Positions 541-47,260 of a stretch of 64,000 nucleotides of DNA are shown here, piece by piece. The notes beneath the pieces are model-generated. The model was not told the DNA's origin and made no database searches. It was given only the letters and a program-made list of their open reading frames with translations. Position 1 is the first letter of the stretch; the number at the start of each line of letters is the position of its first letter. Origin of the DNA: Lachnospiraceae bacterium (GTDB lineage: Bacteria; Bacillota; Clostridia; Lachnospirales; Lachnospiraceae); assembly GCA_017411305.1 (NCBI GenBank), contig JAFQQI010000052.1, positions 186,001-250,000 on the forward strand, in the 5' to 3' direction. The position numbers and the translations under genes are program-made.

Positions 541-2850
541 TTATTTTAGCTTCCAAATATCCCTGTTATATTCCGCAATGGTTCTGTCAGATGAGAAGAA
601 GCCTGCCTTGGCAATATTCACCAGCATCATCTTTTTCCATTTATCTCTGTCTTCATAATCTGCAAACATCTTATCCTTAGTTTTAATATAATCTTCCAAA
701 TCAAGTAATGTCATGAACCAGTCTTTGTTCAGAAGTTCCTTGTAAAGACGCTCTAAGTTTTCCTTATGACCTACTTTAAGTGCCTGCTTACTTACAATAA
801 AGTCAACTGCCTCTTTAATCACAGGACTCTTCTTATAATAATCCTTGGAAACATAATCTGCCTTTTCGTAGTGCTTAATAACTGTCTCGGACTTTTCACC
901 GAAGATATAAATGTTATCGTCGCCTACCAACTGGTGTATTTCTACATTTGCACCGTCAGAAGTACCCAAAGTTACTGCACCGTTTAGCATAAACTTCATG
1001 TTACCGGTACCGGATGCTTCTTTGGAAGCCAAGGAAATCTGCTCAGAAATATCACATGCAGGAATCAGCTTCTCTGCATAGCTTACGTTATAGTTTTCTA
1101 CCATAAGCACTGTCATATAAGGACTTACATCAGGATCATTGTTAATAATCTCCTGCAGTACAAGAATCAGATGAATGATATCCTGGGCAATAACATAAGC
1201 AGGTGCTGCCTTTGCACCAAAGATAAAGGTAAGCGGTCTTACCGGCTTCTTGCCTGCTTTGATTTCCAGGTACTTATGAATGATATACAACGCGTTCATC
1301 TGCTGACGCTTATACTCATGCAGTCTCTTAATCTGAATATCAAAGATAGAGTCGGGATTTAATGTTACGCCTTCCTTTTGACTTACATAGTCAGCAAGTT
1401 CTTTCTTACGATTCATCTTAATTTCTTCAATTCCGTCAAGCACCTGCTGGCAATCAGCATATTCAAGCAACTTTTCTAATTTGTCTGCATCCTTCTTATA
1501 TCCGTCGCCGATGGTCTCTGATAAGAATGAAGCAAGTTCTCTGTTACAGGACAATAACCATCTTCTGAAGGTAATACCGTTAGTTTTGTTGTTGAACTTT
1601 TCAGGATAAAGCTTATAGAATGAGTTCAGCTCTGTATCTTTCAAAATCTCTGTATGGATAGCAGCCACTCCGTTTACGGAAAATCCGTAATGGATATCGA
1701 TATGTGCCATATGCACTCTGCCGTCCTTGTCAATAATCTGCACCTTAGGGTCTTTATACTTAGCAGCAACTCTCTTATCCAGCTCTTTAATATAAGGAAT
1801 TAACTGGGGCACTACCTTCTCTAAGTACTTAAGCGGCCACTTTTCCAATGCTTCCGCTAAAATCGTATGATTGGTATATGCACATGTCTTACTTACCACA
1901 TCAATAGCCTCATCCACGGTAAATGCTTTTTCTTCTACCAGAATACGGATTAATTCCGGAATAATCATGGTAGGATGGGTATCGTTAATCTGGATTACCG
2001 CATGGTTATACAGCTTACGAAGGTCATACTTCTTTTCCTTCATTTCGCGTAAAATCAGCTGTGCTGCATTACTTACCATAAAATACTGCTGGTAAATACG
2101 AAGCAGATTACCCGCTTCATCGGAGTCATCCGGATAAAGGAATAAGGTTAAGTTCTTTGCAATTTCTTCCTTATCAAAGCTGATGCCGTCCTTCACAAGA
2201 CTTTCGTCAATGGTTTCGATATCAAACAGACGAAGCTTATTAACGCCGCTCTTATAGCCCGCTACATCAATATTATATAAGCGTGAGGTTACCTTCTTCT
2301 TACCAAAATAAACATCAAAGCTCACATCTGTCTTGGTCAGCCAGGAATTCTGCTCAATCCAGTCATTCTTTTCTGCGTTCTGTAATCTGTCCTTAAACAC
2401 CTGCTTGAACAGACCGAAGTGATAATTTAAACCGATACCTTCACCGGGCAGTCCCAAAGAAGCGATAGAATCAAGGAAACATGCCGCAAGTCTTCCAAGT
2501 CCACCGTTTCCTAAAGAAGGTTCCGGCTCAATTTCCTCAATTACAGAAAGGTCTTTGCCGTATTTTGATAAGACACTCTTCATCTTATCATAAACGCCCA
2601 GATTAAGGAGATTATTAGATAACAGCTTACCAATCAGAAACTCTGCAGAAATGTAATAAATCTTCTTTTCTCCTTCATTGCCGTCGGACACGGACATCAG
2701 ACGCTTAGTCAGTGTCAATACTACATAATAGGTTTCTCGGTCACTTAAATCCGTAAGCTCCTTGCCAAACATATCCTTGGCAATCTCTTTCAGCTGTGCC
2801 TCCAGATTTAAAACAAGTACATCTTTTTGTAAGTTTGTTTGTGCAGACAT
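541..2850 (-). CDS. glgP: Glycogen/maltodextrin phosphorylase
   Basis: A 769-residue GT35 alpha-glucan phosphorylase. These enzymes release glucose-1-phosphate from the non-reducing ends of glycogen or maltodextrins in the cytosol, using pyridoxal phosphate. The N-terminal part carries the family signature [19 protein letters not shown]. The PLP-binding segment is [10 protein letters not shown], and Lys619 should form the Schiff base. The length is slightly below the usual 800 or so. A good ribosome site (AGGAGG) precedes the ATG. A LacI regulator lies immediately upstream on the same strand, suggesting control by sugar supply. The 78-bp gap to it holds an inverted repeat (GCGTTT/AAACGC, about 2905-2921) that could be an operator or a weak terminator. 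Glycogen versus maltodextrin preference cannot be read from the sequence. Confidence 0.95.
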
Positions 2851-2927
2851 AACTACCTCCTAAAAATAATTTCTCTTTTCATTGACTCCTATTTTTATCA
2901 TTAGCGTTTCCAAAAAACGCCTGTTTA

Positions 2928-3917
2928 TCAACAAATAATATCTTCATATTTCATTCTTACAAGCTGATGGGGCAAAACCACTTTTCTGCCTTCACCACCC
3001 GCAAGCAATGTATGCAATTCTTCCATGGCATTTCGCGAAACCTCAGCAAAATTCTGCCGCACCGTATTCATTTGTTTCCCTACATACCCCATCAACACAA
3101 TTCCGTCAAAACCGCAAACCGGACGGAAAATATCCATATCAATCAGTGCTTTCATGGCTCCGATAGCCATCAGATCAGAGGCACAGACCACAACATCTTT
3201 ATTTTTTGCATATTTCATTGTAATGTTTCTTGCCAAGAGTTCTGAAAACTCCCCGTTTCTAACCAGCACGGTCAGCCCTAACTCCTTTGCCAGTTGCTCC
3301 ATTCCCAAAAGCCTTTCATCAGTCACGTAACCGTTTCTCTTACCGGCAATATACAGAACACGTTTACAATTATTCTCTTCTATCGTCTTCCGCGCCACAT
3401 CATATTGGGCTTTCCTGTCATCAATCCCTACGCTGGAAGTACTTTTATTTACCAAAGGAGCATTTACTACCACGCATTTAAACTCCTGAGTCTCTACCAG
3501 TTTATGAAGCACCTTATCTTCTTTAGACATTCCGTAAATAATGATACCGGCAATGCTTTGTGATTTTAAATACCTGATAAGTTCCTCTACTGTCATATTC
3601 CGGTACATAAAAGAAAACAGGGTAATCACATCCAGATTCAGCTCCATGGCTCTGTTCAGCGCTCCCGTAATATGCTGCATATTTATCTCATCAATTGCGC
3701 TTGTCTTGCTGTTAATATCAACAAGAAGTGCCACTCTGCCAGCCTGCTTGGAAGAAAGTGCTGCTGCCACAGAGTTTGGTACAAAGTTTAATTCCTCTAC
3801 TGCACGGTTTACCCTTTCTCTTGTTTCCTCGCTTACATTGGGATAATCGTTCAGCACCTTGGATACTGTGGAAATTGCCACACCTGCGCATCTTGCTACA
3901 TCCTTAATCGATACCAT
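2928..3917 (-). CDS. LacI/GalR family transcriptional regulator
   Basis: 329 residues with the standard LacI layout. The N-terminal helix-turn-helix and hinge begin MVSIKDVARCAGVAISTVSKVLN, followed by a periplasmic-binding-protein-like effector domain (about 60-329) that includes a DDRKAQYDVA-type segment and CGFDGI near the end. It is probably a sugar-responsive repressor. It sits just upstream of and in line with glycogen phosphorylase, so that gene is the likeliest target. A palindrome matching LacI-type operators lies 29 bp upstream of its own start, pointing to autoregulation. The inducer is unknown. Confidence 0.93.
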   Translation of the reverse strand: MVSIKDVARCAGVAISTVSKVLNDYPNVSEETRERVNRAVEELNFVPNSVAAALSSKQAGRVALLVDINSKTSAIDEINMQHITGALNRAMELNLDVITLFSFMYRNMTVEELIRYLKSQSIAGIIIYGMSKEDKVLHKLVETQEFKCVVVNAPLVNKSTSSVGIDDRKAQYDVARKTIEENNCKRVLYIAGKRNGYVTDERLLGMEQLAKELGLTVLVRNGEFSELLARNITMKYAKNKDVVVCASDLMAIGAMKALIDMDIFRPVCGFDGIVLMGYVGKQMNTVRQNFAEVSRNAMEELHTLLAGGEGRKVVLPHQLVRMKYEDIIC

Positions 3918-7055: not shown

Positions 7056-8150
7056 TCATTCTCCCAAAATGCTGTCAACTTTTAAATCACAAATCTCTTC
7101 CGTTTTGCATGCTTCAAAATAGCGGTTCTCCATGGGAATCCACTTGTCCCGGAATATCTCATACATTTCTTTTCCGTTGCGCGCCATGATTCTTTGCTTT
7201 TGCACATCTTCCTGTAGTTTTAAAAAGATTTTGCAATCATATACTTCCCTGAAATCCTCACGCATGGAATAGGAGCCTTCTATAATCAGCATTTTCCTGT
7301 TACTGATTCTTTTCACACCAGTATAATTCATATCACTACATGAGAATACCCGGTATTCAAACGCCTTTCCGCTTCGTATACCTTCCACCACCTCGGCGAT
7401 AAACCGTTCATAATGGATGTTTCCTCCCACCTCTTCCATACGCATGGGCGTACGCAATTGTCCCGGCAGAAAGAATTCATCCATATGAATTACTTCACCA
7501 TCATACAGTTCCATAAGACATTGTGCCAGAGTTGTTTTTCCTGCTGCCGCATTTCCGTCAATTCCTATGATAAGATTGGGTTTCTTTTGTTGCTGCTTAT
7601 CTACGGCTGCAAGAATTTTCATAAAAGGAACATACTTTTCCTCTATTACACGGTAAGCCGGCCGGTATGCCTTCCGGTAATCCTCACTATGGCTAACCGG
7701 CGGATATCCACATTCCTTTTGCTTTCTGATATACGCGATATATTCCTCTTTTGAAAAACCAAATGACATTTCATCCAAGTATGCTTCTACTGTCTTTAGC
7801 TTTTTTTCAAAGTTTTTTTCATCTCCCCGGCGATGATTTGCAGAATGTATAAACACACGGTTTAGAATTATTAATTCTGTCTCATCCGTTCCGGATAGAT
7901 AATAACGGCACAATCCGTTTCCGATGCTCTCTTTCTTTCCATTGTTTCTTTTGTCCGTGTGCTTTATCTGCCTGCCAAGCTCTTTTTCTGCAAGATATTC
8001 TTTTTCAAGCCTCTGCATAGATTGCTTCGGATTCTCCACAAAATGTCCGGGGCCAAACTCGTTTTGATAAATCAGCTTTACCAAATCCTGCACCTGCATA
8101 ACCGGATACTTTTCTTTATGCCTTCTGATGATTTCCAAAAGCTCATTCAT
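7056..8150 (-). CDS. Uridine kinase-like P-loop kinase with extra N-terminal domain
   Basis: 364 residues. The C-terminal half (from about residue 195) is a P-loop kinase of the uridine kinase/phosphoribulokinase/CoaA class, with Walker A GIDGNAAAGKTT and a downstream VIHMDEFF motif. The N-terminal half of roughly 180 residues (starting MNELLEIIRRHKEKYPVMQVQD, with NEFGPGHFV) is a separate conserved-looking domain of unknown function. Its start codon overlaps the stop of the ECF S-subunit gene by 8 bp, indicating translational coupling. Transport followed by phosphorylation would trap a vitamin or nucleoside in the cell. The substrate cannot be assigned from sequence, and uridine is only the nearest named homologue. 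Confidence 0.75.
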   Translation of the reverse strand: MNELLEIIRRHKEKYPVMQVQDLVKLIYQNEFGPGHFVENPKQSMQRLEKEYLAEKELGRQIKHTDKRNNGKKESIGNGLCRYYLSGTDETELIILNRVFIHSANHRRGDEKNFEKKLKTVEAYLDEMSFGFSKEEYIAYIRKQKECGYPPVSHSEDYRKAYRPAYRVIEEKYVPFMKILAAVDKQQQKKPNLIIGIDGNAAAGKTTLAQCLMELYDGEVIHMDEFFLPGQLRTPMRMEEVGGNIHYERFIAEVVEGIRSGKAFEYRVFSCSDMNYTGVKRISNRKMLIIEGSYSMREDFREVYDCKIFLKLQEDVQKQRIMARNGKEMYEIFRDKWIPMENRYFEACKTEEICDLKVDSILGE

Positions 8151-44102: not shown

Positions 44103-45038
44103 CTAAAATCCTAAGTTTTTAAATAAATCGCCTAAGCTGGTACCCACACTTTCATCAGAAGAAAACTGCGCCGTATCAAGCTCTTCCCTTTCCTGGGCTT
44201 CCTGTTCTTCCTCTACAGCCTTTATACTTAAAGATATTTTCCCGTCATTGGTATTTAAAACCTTTACCTTCACTTTGTCTCCTACCTTATGTACTTCCGA
44301 AGGTTTTTTGATACGTTTCTGACTGATTTGAGAAATATGCACCAATCCGCTAAGCCCGTCTTTTAAATCCACAAAGGCACCGTAGGTCTGCAGACTCTCT
44401 ACCGTTCCTTCCAAAACAGTCCCGGGCACAATCATTGCCACTTTATGGTCATGGGCTTCCTTCTCTTTCTCCCTGAGCACCTCTTTTGCTGATAAAATCA
44501 GCCTCTCTTTGGCGCGTTCCAGAGCGGTGACTCTAACAGTCAATTTCTTACCTACAAAAGGCGCAACATCCTCCACATATGCCATATCCAGCTGGGAAGC
44601 AGGAATAAACCCGCGGATTCCTTCCACATAAGCAACTACACCTGCATTTACCGCTTCACTTACCTTCACTGTAATATCCTTCTTTTCCTGCAGATAGCTG
44701 TTAAGGATATCCCAGGAAAGCACTGCATTTGCTTCCTTCTTGGACAAAAGAATATTTCCCTGTCCGTCATCCATTTTCACCACAATTGCTTCAATAACAT
44801 CGCCTTCATGAACTTCCTCTAATACTGCAAACCCGGGGTCAGCACTCATATCCTTGGCTTTGATAATTCCCTGGGTGTAATATTTTAAATCCAATGTTAC
44901 TTCTTCTTCATTTACGTCAATAACAGTTCCTGAAATGACATCTCCCTCGTTAATCTTACGAAAAGAAGCCTCCAGCTCCCGCTCATAGTCCATCATGGTC
45001 TCTTCTGCTACTATTTCCTCTGTCATATGTTCTTCCAT
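44103..45038 (-). CDS. S1 RNA-binding domain protein (ribosomal protein S1 homologue)
   Basis: 311 residues with four S1-like segments: GDVISGTVIDVNEEEVTLDL, GDVIEAIVVKMDDGQGNILLS, the AGVVAYVEGIRGFIPASQLD repeat, and a final well-kept one, GTVLEGTVESLQTYGAFVDLKDGLSGLVHISQIS. Such short S1 homologues in Firmicutes bind mRNA or the ribosome without being stable 30S components. The ATG at 45038 follows GGAGG. It is 34 bp downstream of hflC and likely co-transcribed, placing it under the riboswitch in front of hflK. Confidence 0.9.
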   Translation of the reverse strand: MEEHMTEEIVAEETMMDYERELEASFRKINEGDVISGTVIDVNEEEVTLDLKYYTQGIIKAKDMSADPGFAVLEEVHEGDVIEAIVVKMDDGQGNILLSKKEANAVLSWDILNSYLQEKKDITVKVSEAVNAGVVAYVEGIRGFIPASQLDMAYVEDVAPFVGKKLTVRVTALERAKERLILSAKEVLREKEKEAHDHKVAMIVPGTVLEGTVESLQTYGAFVDLKDGLSGLVHISQISQKRIKKPSEVHKVGDKVKVKVLNTNDGKISLSIKAVEEEQEAQEREELDTAQFSSDESVGTSLGDLFKNLGF

Positions 45039-45072: not shown

Positions 45073-45936
45073 TTAATAGAAAATCTGCGCAATAGGCGAG
45101 GTTTCATCAATAATCAGTGTCTTATTCTCGCCACCCATGGTAATCTTTGCGGCATCCAGTGATCGAAGGAAAATATAAAACTCTGCCTTATCAGGATCAT
45201 TGTAGGCTTCACCCAAAATTCTCATATACTCTGCCTCACCTTTTGCAATAATCTGCGCTGCCTGGGCATCCGCCTCTGACTGCATTACGATAATTTCAGC
45301 TTGGGTATTGTTGGAAATCTGCTTTGCTTCCTCGGCACCTTCCGCCTGATAGGTTGCCGCAATATTATTACGTTCGGAAATCATTCTTTCATATACGGCT
45401 GCTTTATTTTCATCCGGCAAATCCAATGACTTGGTTTCTACCGCTAAAAGCTCAATACCGTACTGCGTAAGTGTATCACCAATGTTGGCCATGATAGCCG
45501 CTGTCAGCTCACCGTCACGTCCGCTGATTACTTCTTCCTGGGTCATACTACTGATTACATTTTTTAAACTGTTGTACACAATGGTATCAATTCTGAATTC
45601 CGCATTGCTCTTCTGGGCACTTAAGGTTTCCGTGTATTTCTGTGGGTCATCAATCCGCCAAAGCGCAAAACAATCCGCAATCATGGACTTTTTGTCCTTA
45701 GTCATAACATCGCTGACCGCAAGGTCATATAAAAGTACTTCGTTTTCAATTTTTTCTGCCGTCTGAATTATCGGAAGTTTAAAGCTAAGTCCCGCATCTT
45801 CTCTGATTCCTACAATTTTACCGAACTGCTTAATCACAGTAAACTCGTTGGGGTATGTTACTACCATGGAAGACTCGGCAACAATCCATATACCGGCCAA
45901 AATGATAAGAATTACAATCCATTTACTCTTTTTCAT
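45073..45936 (-). CDS. hflC: HflC, SPFH-domain membrane protein
   Basis: 287 residues. An N-terminal membrane helix is followed by a periplasm-facing SPFH domain (EFTVIKQFGKIVGIREDAGLSFKLPIIQTAEKIENEVLLYDL) and a helical part with the conserved MISERNNIAATYQAEGAEEAKQI. HflC pairs with HflK in a cage around the FtsH protease and modulates its proteolysis of membrane proteins. It begins 17 bp after hflK. Confidence 0.93.
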   Translation of the reverse strand: MKKSKWIVILIILAGIWIVAESSMVVTYPNEFTVIKQFGKIVGIREDAGLSFKLPIIQTAEKIENEVLLYDLAVSDVMTKDKKSMIADCFALWRIDDPQKYTETLSAQKSNAEFRIDTIVYNSLKNVISSMTQEEVISGRDGELTAAIMANIGDTLTQYGIELLAVETKSLDLPDENKAAVYERMISERNNIAATYQAEGAEEAKQISNNTQAEIIVMQSEADAQAAQIIAKGEAEYMRILGEAYNDPDKAEFYIFLRSLDAAKITMGGENKTLIIDETSPIAQIFY

Positions 45937-45953: not shown

Positions 45954-47003
45954 CTACTGTGCACTTTCATCTGTTGTTTCTGAAGATGTATAGGCAGTCG
46001 CACCGGAAACAACTTCACTTGTTGACAAAGAAGCGCCTCCAAGGTCCACGAAAGACTCTAAAGGTAACATAGTCTGGGTTGTGCCGTCGCTTTTTTCAAT
46101 AATAATCTTCATACCGGGAAGAATTTCTTCCATAGTCTCATAGAACATTCTCTGTTTCGTAATCAACGGATATTTCTGATATTCTGCATAGAGCTCATTT
46201 AGTCTTGCCACCTGTCCTTCCGCTTCGTTGATTCTCTCCTCAGCGGTAGCCTGTGCCGTTTTAATGGTTTCATCTGCCTTCGCTCTGGCAGCGGGAATAT
46301 CCTCATTGCGCTTCTGATTTGCTTTATTAATAGAGGTTTCTTTTCCCTGTTTTGCATTTTCAACGTTCTTAAATGCATCAATAACCTCTGTGGTGGGCGG
46401 TTCTGCATCCTGAATGGTAATATTAACCAGCTGGATACCGATATCCTCTGCCTCTAATCTGGTCATAATTTTTTCTTTGATGGATGCCTGAATTTCACTC
46501 TTGCCTGTAGTAATGACACTGTCTACATCATACAGACCGATGGTATCTCTTATGTAACTCTGGGTCAGATTTTTAAGAATCGCCACAGGACTTTCCGAGG
46601 CATACAAATATTTCACAGGGTCAGTTACTCTGTATTCCACATAGAAATCCACATTTACGAAATTGTAGTCTCTGGTAATCATAAAGGATTCCTTCGCAAT
46701 GGGCTCATCCGTCTCCGCATCATAACCAATGGGGAAACCGTTAATTGTCTTAGGTACCTTGCGCATTTGCTGAATATAAGGTACTTTCAAATGGATACCG
46801 GATTCCTCTACTACCTGCGGTACACCGAAGGTGGTAATTACCGCATATTCATTTTCTTTTAGGGAATATACACTGCCAAACAGCAGGTATACCGCGAGAA
46901 ATACCAATAGTAAAATTCCCGCACCCTTCCCTACATTTGCCAAAAGCTTCTTATTCTGCTCATTTGGCTGGTCATACACATTTTTGTCTTTTCTTCTGAA
47001 CAT
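45954..47003 (-). CDS. hflK: HflK, SPFH-domain membrane protein
   Basis: 349 residues. A cytoplasmic N-terminal segment with charged residues is followed by a membrane helix (about 31-50) and an SPFH domain (ENEYAVITTFGVPQVVEESGIHLKVPYIQQM). The long helix region includes VENAKQGKETSINKANQKRNEDIPAARAKADE. With HflC it forms the HflKC complex controlling FtsH. AGGAGG precedes the ATG. The 5' untranslated region is long and contains a yybP-ykoY-type riboswitch and terminator. Confidence 0.93.
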   Translation of the reverse strand: MFRRKDKNVYDQPNEQNKKLLANVGKGAGILLLVFLAVYLLFGSVYSLKENEYAVITTFGVPQVVEESGIHLKVPYIQQMRKVPKTINGFPIGYDAETDEPIAKESFMITRDYNFVNVDFYVEYRVTDPVKYLYASESPVAILKNLTQSYIRDTIGLYDVDSVITTGKSEIQASIKEKIMTRLEAEDIGIQLVNITIQDAEPPTTEVIDAFKNVENAKQGKETSINKANQKRNEDIPAARAKADETIKTAQATAEERINEAEGQVARLNELYAEYQKYPLITKQRMFYETMEEILPGMKIIIEKSDGTTQTMLPLESFVDLGGASLSTSEVVSGATAYTSSETTDESAQ

Positions 47004-47083
47004 ATTTTCCTCCTTTTCACACTTGCATTAGTACAAGTCACCGTTTTTGCAGATGGTCTGCTTCACGGGAGTTCCCGTGATGT

Positions 47084-47127
47084 AAAAAAAGACCCTTATT
47101 GCAGCCACCTGCTACAATAAAAGTCTT
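47084..47127 (-). terminator. Riboswitch-controlled terminator upstream of hflK
   Basis: On the minus strand, AAGACTTTTATTG (47115-47127) pairs with CAATAAGGGTCTT (47089-47101) and is followed by seven T (47084-47090). The left arm is the same sequence as the 3' half of aptamer helix P1, so the two structures are mutually exclusive. A further hairpin CACGGGA-ACT-CCCGTG (about 47064-47079) lies between here and the hflK ribosome site. Confidence 0.8.
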
Positions 47128-47220
47128 GCTACAGTTCATCGCTGATTCGGAACGGATACCTCCATCGTCTTGACGATTCCGAATATATCTTGGGAAAGAT
47201 ATAAGCTACTCCCTTTTATT
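47116..47220 (-). promoter_or_regulatory. yybP-ykoY family (manganese) riboswitch aptamer
   Basis: Reading the minus strand: P1 AATAAAAG (47213-47220) pairs with CTTTTATT (47116-47123). Inside P1 are the family's conserved GGAGTAGC (47205-47212) and GCAAGA (47124-47129). Between them are three hairpins: P2 (TTATATCTT/AAGATATA), P3 (TTCGGAA/TTCCGAA enclosing an internal loop with GGAGGTATCCG) and a short P4 (CAG/CTG). The family senses Mn2+ and usually controls metal exporters. Here the downstream operon is hflK-hflC-S1 protein. The terminator competing with P1 predicts an ON switch: Mn2+ stabilises P1 and prevents termination. Confidence 0.75.
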
Positions 47221-47231
47221 TGATGGAATTA

Positions 47232-47260
47232 ATAATATCACCTTGTTAATTAACTGTCAA
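47232..47260 (-). promoter_or_regulatory. Promoter of the riboswitch-hflKC transcript
   Basis: TTGACA (47255-47260 on minus), a 17-bp spacer, TATTAT (47232-47237). Transcription would begin about 47,225, directly before the aptamer. Confidence 0.78.

Follow-up and report, generated by a model that had tools for sequence, protein, structure and literature searches.

On the minus strand of the window, by which we mean the whole 64,000-nucleotide stretch analyzed here, a promoter, an aptamer and an intrinsic terminator are followed by hflK, hflC and a gene with S1 RNA-binding domains, in that order (Table 1). An AGGAGG sequence precedes the hflK start at 47003. The HflK and HflC products pass their NCBIfam equivalog cut-offs and S1 domains were found in the third product, in agreement with the gene identities proposed in an earlier note on this DNA. 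The TTGACA-17-TATTAT promoter that the note had placed immediately ahead of the aptamer was likewise recovered, at 47260-47232, and is retained with small changes across the leaders of the genus. Because the shuffled region yields 1.9 such sites on average, the promoter scan alone is no evidence for a promoter. The spacer between its two boxes, which is close to AATTAACAATATG, is conserved throughout the genus beyond the needs of a promoter. We considered a second regulator acting at this spacer and dropped the idea, because the promoter motif, with three mismatches or fewer allowed, has a single match in the genome (47232-47260), so that no regulon could be drawn.

Table 1. Coordinates of the features of the hflK-hflC locus in the window
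Feature	Position	Strand	Basis or detail
Promoter, sigma-70-type, TTGACA-17-TATTAT with TG extension	47232..47260	minus	11 of 12 consensus positions
Aptamer, yybP-ykoY (Mn2+) type (probable), four-way junction, 106 nt	47115..47220	minus	R1, R2, covariation
P1.1 switch helix, 5' strand, AAUAAAAG	47213..47220	minus	covariation and folding
P1.1 switch helix, 3' strand, CUUUUAUU	47116..47123	minus	common to the terminator 5' arm
Conserved core GGGAGTAGC	47213-47205	minus	
Conserved core GCAAGAC	47129-47123	minus	
L1, 5' side, GGAGUA	47207..47212	minus	
L1, 3' side, AAGA	47127-47124	minus	
L3 metal-site loop (putative), UCAAGAC	47167..47173	minus	fits UCAnnAC
P4 hairpin, CAG/CUG	47132..47144	minus	three pairs
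Intrinsic terminator, 17 pairs, loop of 5	47084..47127	minus	hairpin 47127-47089, seven T at 47090-47084
hflK (SPFH; FtsH modulator)	45954..47003	minus	NCBIfam equivalog TIGR01933, 211.4 against a cut-off of 159.4 bits
hflC	45073..45936	minus	NCBIfam equivalog TIGR01932, 140.9 against a cut-off of 134.4 bits
Gene with S1 RNA-binding domains	44103..45038	minus	start 45038 placed by its Shine-Dalgarno sequence

The leader RNA begins with AATAAAAGGGAGTAGC at 47220 and terminates in GTAGCAAGACTTTTATTG at 47115. The region 47225-47080 folds with a z-score of -4.37, which none of 200 shuffles equaled, and a blast search with the leader against 98 genomes, its own included, found it in 29, with HflK adjoining most of the strong matches. 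An alignment (A1) comprises 28 leaders, of which 25 are counted as hflK leaders (L008 across a contig break) and three (L023, L027 and L031) precede other genes. The segments GAGTA, CGTCA, ACG and AAGACTTTTA are invariant in A1. The five helices P1.1, P1.2, P2, P3 and P4 are paired in 97.1% of the alignment cells and 13 of their 29 pairs change on both sides; none of 500 shuffles reached any of five measures, and partners slid out of register pair in only 32-44% of cells. P4 covaries weakly, with CGG/CCG in L026 and L028, and because this variant is shifted by one column the covariation count understates the helix. Thus, given its conservation in other species and its covariation, the structure of the leader is beyond chance. 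The covarying helices P1.2, P2, P3 and P4 form a four-way junction, and the paired P1 arms, conserved motifs and three inner hairpins that had been read from the letters beforehand agree overall with the unconstrained fold as well.

L1 has GGAGUA (47212-47207) on its 5' side and, on its 3' side, the (G/A)AGAC form as AAGAC at 47127-47123; GAGTA and AAGAC are invariant in A1, the leading G varying in three rows, and all 97 aptamers of a wider set carry GAGTA, a set that counts one locus twice (L023 is L045) and so represents 96 places. In the Mn2+ riboswitch of Lactococcus lactis, the metal site is described as comprising a G of L1 together with U39, C40, A41, U44 and C45 of L3, with the N7 of the invariable A41 serving as a ligand (PMC9190785; PMC6754395). 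L3 of the window leader likewise holds U, C, an invariable A and a C four places on. None of the 28 A1 leaders departs from its U, C, A, A and C (UCAnnAC), and CGUCAnnAC is present in all 36 parsed hflK leaders, the misparsed L006 showing it on direct reading. From this correspondence of letters we propose that the A at 47171 may be the counterpart of A41. Across the 97 aptamers a simple pattern search, in which off-site matches are possible, gave UCAnnAC in 61, UCAnnUC in three, the longer UCAACAUAC in three, a looser pattern alone in four and neither in 26.

The check that had been suggested for the class assignment, a match to Rfam RF00080 above threshold, failed at every level, an outcome that the earlier note had named as refuting its reading. 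Rfam at gathering thresholds returned only tRNAs from the 64-kb window, the leader alone matched none of 4227 Rfam families at E values up to 10, and RF00080 run on the whole genome gave nothing at the leader position, so the leader falls short of the 45-bit gathering score, which is a database criterion and carries no biological definition. We calibrated the model on the Escherichia coli alx and mntP leaders, two riboswitches of the yybP-ykoY family that sense Mn2+ (PMC9603457): alx was unmatched at E values up to 1 and mntP scored 41.6 bits against the cut-off of 45. Because RF00080 misses alx and under-scores mntP, its miss of the window leader says little, and we dropped it as decisive judge since these two proven riboswitches fail it too. 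Over 60 genomes, the source genome and its relatives, RF00080 exceeded its cut-off in none and reached an E value of 0.1 in seven; a cmscan of 20 chosen loci found it in one, the MntP leader L036, itself originally located through RF00080. The shortfall of RF00080 at the two E. coli loci (L209:964-1075 and L210:1874-2003) means that Rfam surveys may undercount Mn2+ riboswitches. Separately, sub-threshold matches to RF02617 (Streptococcus sRNA 10) overlap aptamers at L047:1503-1626, L085:3178-3297 and L111:299-399, and these sRNAs may be the riboswitch leader under another name.

Covariance models of our own support a yybP-ykoY (Mn2+) riboswitch. R1, built from the 28 A1 leaders with the window leader included, scores this training member at 100.5 bits (E 2.1e-21). 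It matches five of the seven places located with RF00080 (L035 at 59 bits, although L035 resembles L031, a training sequence; L034 at 52, L032 at 39, L036 at 31 and L033 at 27) and fails on L037 and L038. To E. coli mntP it gives 25.3 bits (E 1.3e-4 in 7 kb), and to alx just 11.7 bits (E 0.24). To lessen the circularity we made a second model, R2, from 32 aptamers that lie ahead of cation ATPase genes and include no hflK leader; these were located with R1, so that the model, but not the discovery of its sequences, is independent of the hflK leaders. R2 gives the window leader 59.7 bits (E 3.5e-11), while the matches ranking next within the window have E 3 and 3.4; at E values up to 0.001 the leader is its sole match in the genome. 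It also matches all eight other loci supplied at E below 0.01, namely L034 (53.9 bits), L037 (22.3 bits), the MntP leaders L111 (47.0) and L036 (33.9), the GDT1 leaders L032 (30.9) and L033 (30.5) and, weakly, the two E. coli leaders, mntP with 21.4 bits (E 0.0058) and alx with 20.6 bits (E 0.0089). A model that finds the window leader strongly and gives the leaders of MntP and GDT1 genes 30-47 bits thus relates the leader to those of Mn2+ exporters. Across the class, R2 is found in 103 of 291 genomes at E values up to 0.001.

Comparison with individual members points the same way. Like the window leader, the alx leader has a GGGGAGTAAC and GTGAGACC core and escapes RF00080, and its L3 arm, ATCGTCATTACGATG...CATCCG, is nearly identical to the ATCGTCAAGACGATG...TATCCG of the window leader. 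The two differ in the stem ahead of GTGAGACC, which by eye is long in alx whereas P4 of the window leader is CAG/CUG, and in the target, annotated as the Mn2+ exporter Alx in one case and hflK in the other. The L. lactis yoaB riboswitch, to judge from its published description, is alike in the L3 letters U, C, A and C and in an ON design that sets P1.1 against a terminator, but has yoaB rather than hflK as its target (PMC9190785; PMC11087558). The cation ATPase leaders of the same family, whose kinship is seen in the R2 cross-match to the window leader (E 3.5e-11), differ on the 3' side of L1, where they have TGAGAC in 16 of 32, CAAGAC in eight, CGAGAC in seven and CCAGAC in one, compared with CAAGAC in 27 of 28 A1 leaders and TAAGAC in the other. 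Riboswitch sensing of Mn2+ was reportedly shown by Dambach 2015 and Price 2015, and Martin 2019 reportedly concerns a Streptococcus ATPase. Together these data make it very probable that hflK-hflC is controlled by a riboswitch of the yybP-ykoY (Mn2+) class that has an alx-like L3 arm and switches transcription ON.

The genes downstream of some relatives led us to consider a Na+ riboswitch, since several lead oxaloacetate decarboxylase genes, as Na+-I (DUF1646) occasionally does (PMC9337991). Na+-I is described in the same source as two extended helices, whereas the helices of the leader form a four-way junction, and none of the 4227 Rfam families matched at E values up to 10. A Na+ riboswitch was accordingly rejected, and that the leader belongs to Na+-I or to any other catalogued riboswitch is extremely improbable.

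The strand that the earlier note had assigned to both P1 and the terminator is indeed shared in the sequence and in the folds: the 5' arm of the terminator contains the P1 3' strand. Similar terminators are found in 35 of the 36 parsed hflK leaders, and the 36th, which was misparsed, shows one as well. When the transcript is ended at the P1.1 3' strand, the minimum-energy fold (-22.7 kcal/mol) contains both P1.1 and P1.2 together with a junction of three inner arms. The energy model departs from the covarying structure in the interior of the third arm and in the small fourth hairpin, which pair differently; L3, open in the covarying structure, is replaced in the free fold by a CGUC/GACG hairpin. 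The bare covarying pairs evaluate to -2.7 kcal/mol, and the transcript when folded freely to -22.7, by a model that excludes tertiary and metal contacts. That this energy model prefers another fold to the covarying structure counts against the riboswitch reading. The full leader favors the terminator fold (-43.0), in which P1.1 is gone, over a fold with the covarying pairs enforced (-15.1). Because P1.1 and the terminator share a strand, the two structures are mutually exclusive, and Mn2+ should therefore turn hflKC on.

Published accounts of the direction differ. In L. lactis, Mn2+ is described as stabilizing P1.1 and permitting read-through (PMC11087558), and the riboswitch is called an ON switch (PMC9190785; PMC11087558); a review, contrary to this primary work, labels Mn2+ riboswitches OFF switches (PMC11477304). 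By analogy with L. lactis, the window leader is likely to be switched ON with Mn2+. At low Mn2+, the P1.1 3' strand would enter the 17-pair terminator and transcription would halt ahead of hflK. Mn2+ bound between L1 and L3 would hold P1.1 and block the terminator, so that hflK and hflC, and in this genome the S1 gene too, would be made; in an excess of Mn2+ the turnover of membrane proteins by FtsH would be expected to be adjusted. We observed the anatomy with its conservation and covariation, the shared strand, the kinship to leaders of cation ATPase, MntP and GDT1 genes and the recurrence ahead of hflK; the Mn2+ ligand, the ON direction and the consequence for FtsH are inferred.

The survey of other Clostridia that had been suggested found the arrangement repeatedly. 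Within the genus, HflK is present at E values up to 1e-30 in 29 of 37 genomes, and the aptamer lies before hflK in 25 of these 29, 24 times on the same contig and once (G016) with the leader at one contig end and hflK opening another. In G001 the contig ends 172 bases upstream of hflK, with no aptamer in those bases, and in G002 and G025 hflK has other upstream sequence and no aptamer. In G027 only GTAGCAAGAC and the terminator remain, behind another gene; the stretch (L029:1477-1552) between a gene that by eye is reductase-like and hflK lacks the promoter and the aptamer's 5' portion, a loss that is either a natural deletion or a misassembly. A leader reduced to its 3' piece and terminator is what might be expected of a constitutive attenuator or a protein-bound leader with no small ligand, in which a protein or the rate of transcription would relieve the terminator. 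The letters of L1 and L3, however, are conserved across genera beyond the needs of an attenuator, which makes such a leader highly unlikely.

Taking one genome per genus across the family, R1 is found in 71 of 150 and HflK in 51 of 150. The R1 aptamer adjoins HflK in seven genera (G000, G116, G120, G138, G170, G218 and G223), and beyond the window's genus it precedes hflK in six other genera of the family. Among the best 80 HflK loci listed from named genomes, which partly overlap the genomes of the other counts, the aptamer precedes hflK in 25 and is absent in 52, the upstream sequence of the remaining three being too short. Named carriers include Parablautia muri, P. intestinalis, Konateibacter massiliensis and Murimonas intestini, the record for the last being flagged as possibly contaminated. 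When mapped on a quickly made HflK tree, this trait requires at least 11 changes, against 25.4 with shuffled labels, and the starred branches force at least three, so that the aptamer-hflK association is clustered yet has been repeatedly gained or lost. Just upstream of the hflK aptamer in L069 and L207 lies a palindrome, GAACGTTC within GAACGTTCATTCATTTG, that is perhaps a protein operator.

The S1 gene does not share this distribution. Among the 71 named loci that extend at least 1000 bases past hflC, it follows hflC only in L129, the nearest relative, and the "hflK-hflC-S1 operon" of the earlier note is thus no general description of the target; the S1 gene is a lineage-specific part of the unit. 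What R2 and the covariation bear out from that claim is a riboswitch of yybP-ykoY type ahead of hflK-hflC.

The genes led by the aptamer elsewhere in the family bear on what it senses. A family scan with R1 gave 96 places, the window and 95 others, of which 89 (L040-L128) were read and the six weakest left out. The first downstream gene, grouped by blastp with most groups named from a single member, is a cation ATPase in 32 of these 89 loci, a protein of 140-150 aa in 14, OadB in 10, a Na/Ca exchanger in 10 and HflK in six; the rest are CNNM/CorC (three), the AI-2E family (two), citrate-transporter-like (two), MntP (one) and seven singles, one of which is the SPFH protein of L121, and in two loci no gene begins before the contig end. 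Thus hflK is a minority target and the cation ATPase is the main target of the family-wide switch. The one ATPase tested, a partial sequence, has PMR1-type calcium ATPases as its best NCBIfam match, below the cut-off, and cation ATPases are described behind Mn2+ riboswitches in L. lactis and Clostridium difficile (PMC11477304).

Several of the other targets are observations in their own right. The 140-150 aa family, most members of which have a GLWDMxGGG-like motif, directly follows the aptamer in 14 of the 89 loci (L045, L064, L066, L067, L077, L086, L090, L093, L104, L112, L113, L114, L117 and L124), and gave no Pfam match for the one member searched and no NCBIfam match for four. OadB, the beta subunit of the oxaloacetate decarboxylase Na+ pump, is led by the aptamer at L041, L068, L091, L094, L100, L101, L103, L108, L110 and L119, and also at L031 and L225-L227, and Na/Ca exchangers at L072, L088, L089 and others. 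At L121 a second SPFH (Band 7) protein (2176-3045), below the HflK cut-off, is likewise led by an aptamer (3174-3272), and at L142 a second aptamer (7352-7451) lies downstream of hflK-hflC, before an apparent Na/Ca exchanger gene.

That many of these downstream genes (OadB, the Na/Ca exchangers and the 140-150 aa family) are no known Mn2+ genes counts against the Mn2+ reading. A relative of the Mn2+ riboswitch might have been retuned to another signal, be it another divalent ion or one linked to Na+ or to pH, which hflKC would then answer: the same type of aptamer leads OadB in 10 of 89 loci, Na/Ca exchangers in 10 and the 140-150 aa family in 14, and alx, by L3 its nearest proven relative, is reported to respond to alkaline pH as well (PMC9603457). 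Against this, the leader retains the letters named for the metal site in L3 of L. lactis, which are U, C, A and, four positions further, C; the cation ATPase is the commonest target in the family, and MntP and GDT1 leaders are among the relatives, and we regard retuning as unlikely. A tentative proposal, and a rather improbable one, is that a branch of yybP-ykoY in this family runs a broader membrane-ion stress regulon, taking in HflKC, the other SPFH protein, OadB, the Na/Ca exchangers and the 140-150 aa family, under a signal other than or besides Mn2+, so that an ion-sensing RNA would set FtsH-dependent membrane quality control.

HflKC forms a cage around FtsH. By its NCBIfam name it is a modulator of FtsH, and the genome has two FtsH-type (PF01434) peptidase matches. 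An action of Mn2+ through FtsH has a precedent, by a different route, in Bacillus subtilis, where FtsH and the rhomboid adaptor YqgP are described as degrading the MgtE transporter at high Mn2+ (PMC7231995). A search for a rhomboid gene in the source genome, which is 82.6% complete, found none, so the YqgP-FtsH route cannot simply be transferred to this organism and serves here as a precedent only. In the literature searched we found no Mn2+ riboswitch linked to hflK or another SPFH gene, although hflK might be among the genes listed in Dambach 2015, Price 2015 or Martin 2019; a survey of RNA regulons places tellurium-resistance and other transporters behind yybP-ykoY, hflK being absent from its main text (PMC3766115). 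On the class assignment made above, the leader belongs to a known riboswitch class, has a form that escapes the standard model and has a target, hflK, unreported in the literature searched.

The form that RF00080 overlooks is widespread in the family, with R1 found in 71 of 150 genomes, one per genus, compared with none of 60 genomes above the RF00080 cut-off, and the same switch brings to light an unnamed protein family behind it. With hflK-hflC, a protease-scaffold operon joins a riboswitch class known for metal exporters, and a link between Mn2+ load and the control of FtsH by HflKC becomes directly testable. If the Mn2+ reading is true, manganese would turn on proteins that restrain a membrane protease in a gut bacterium.
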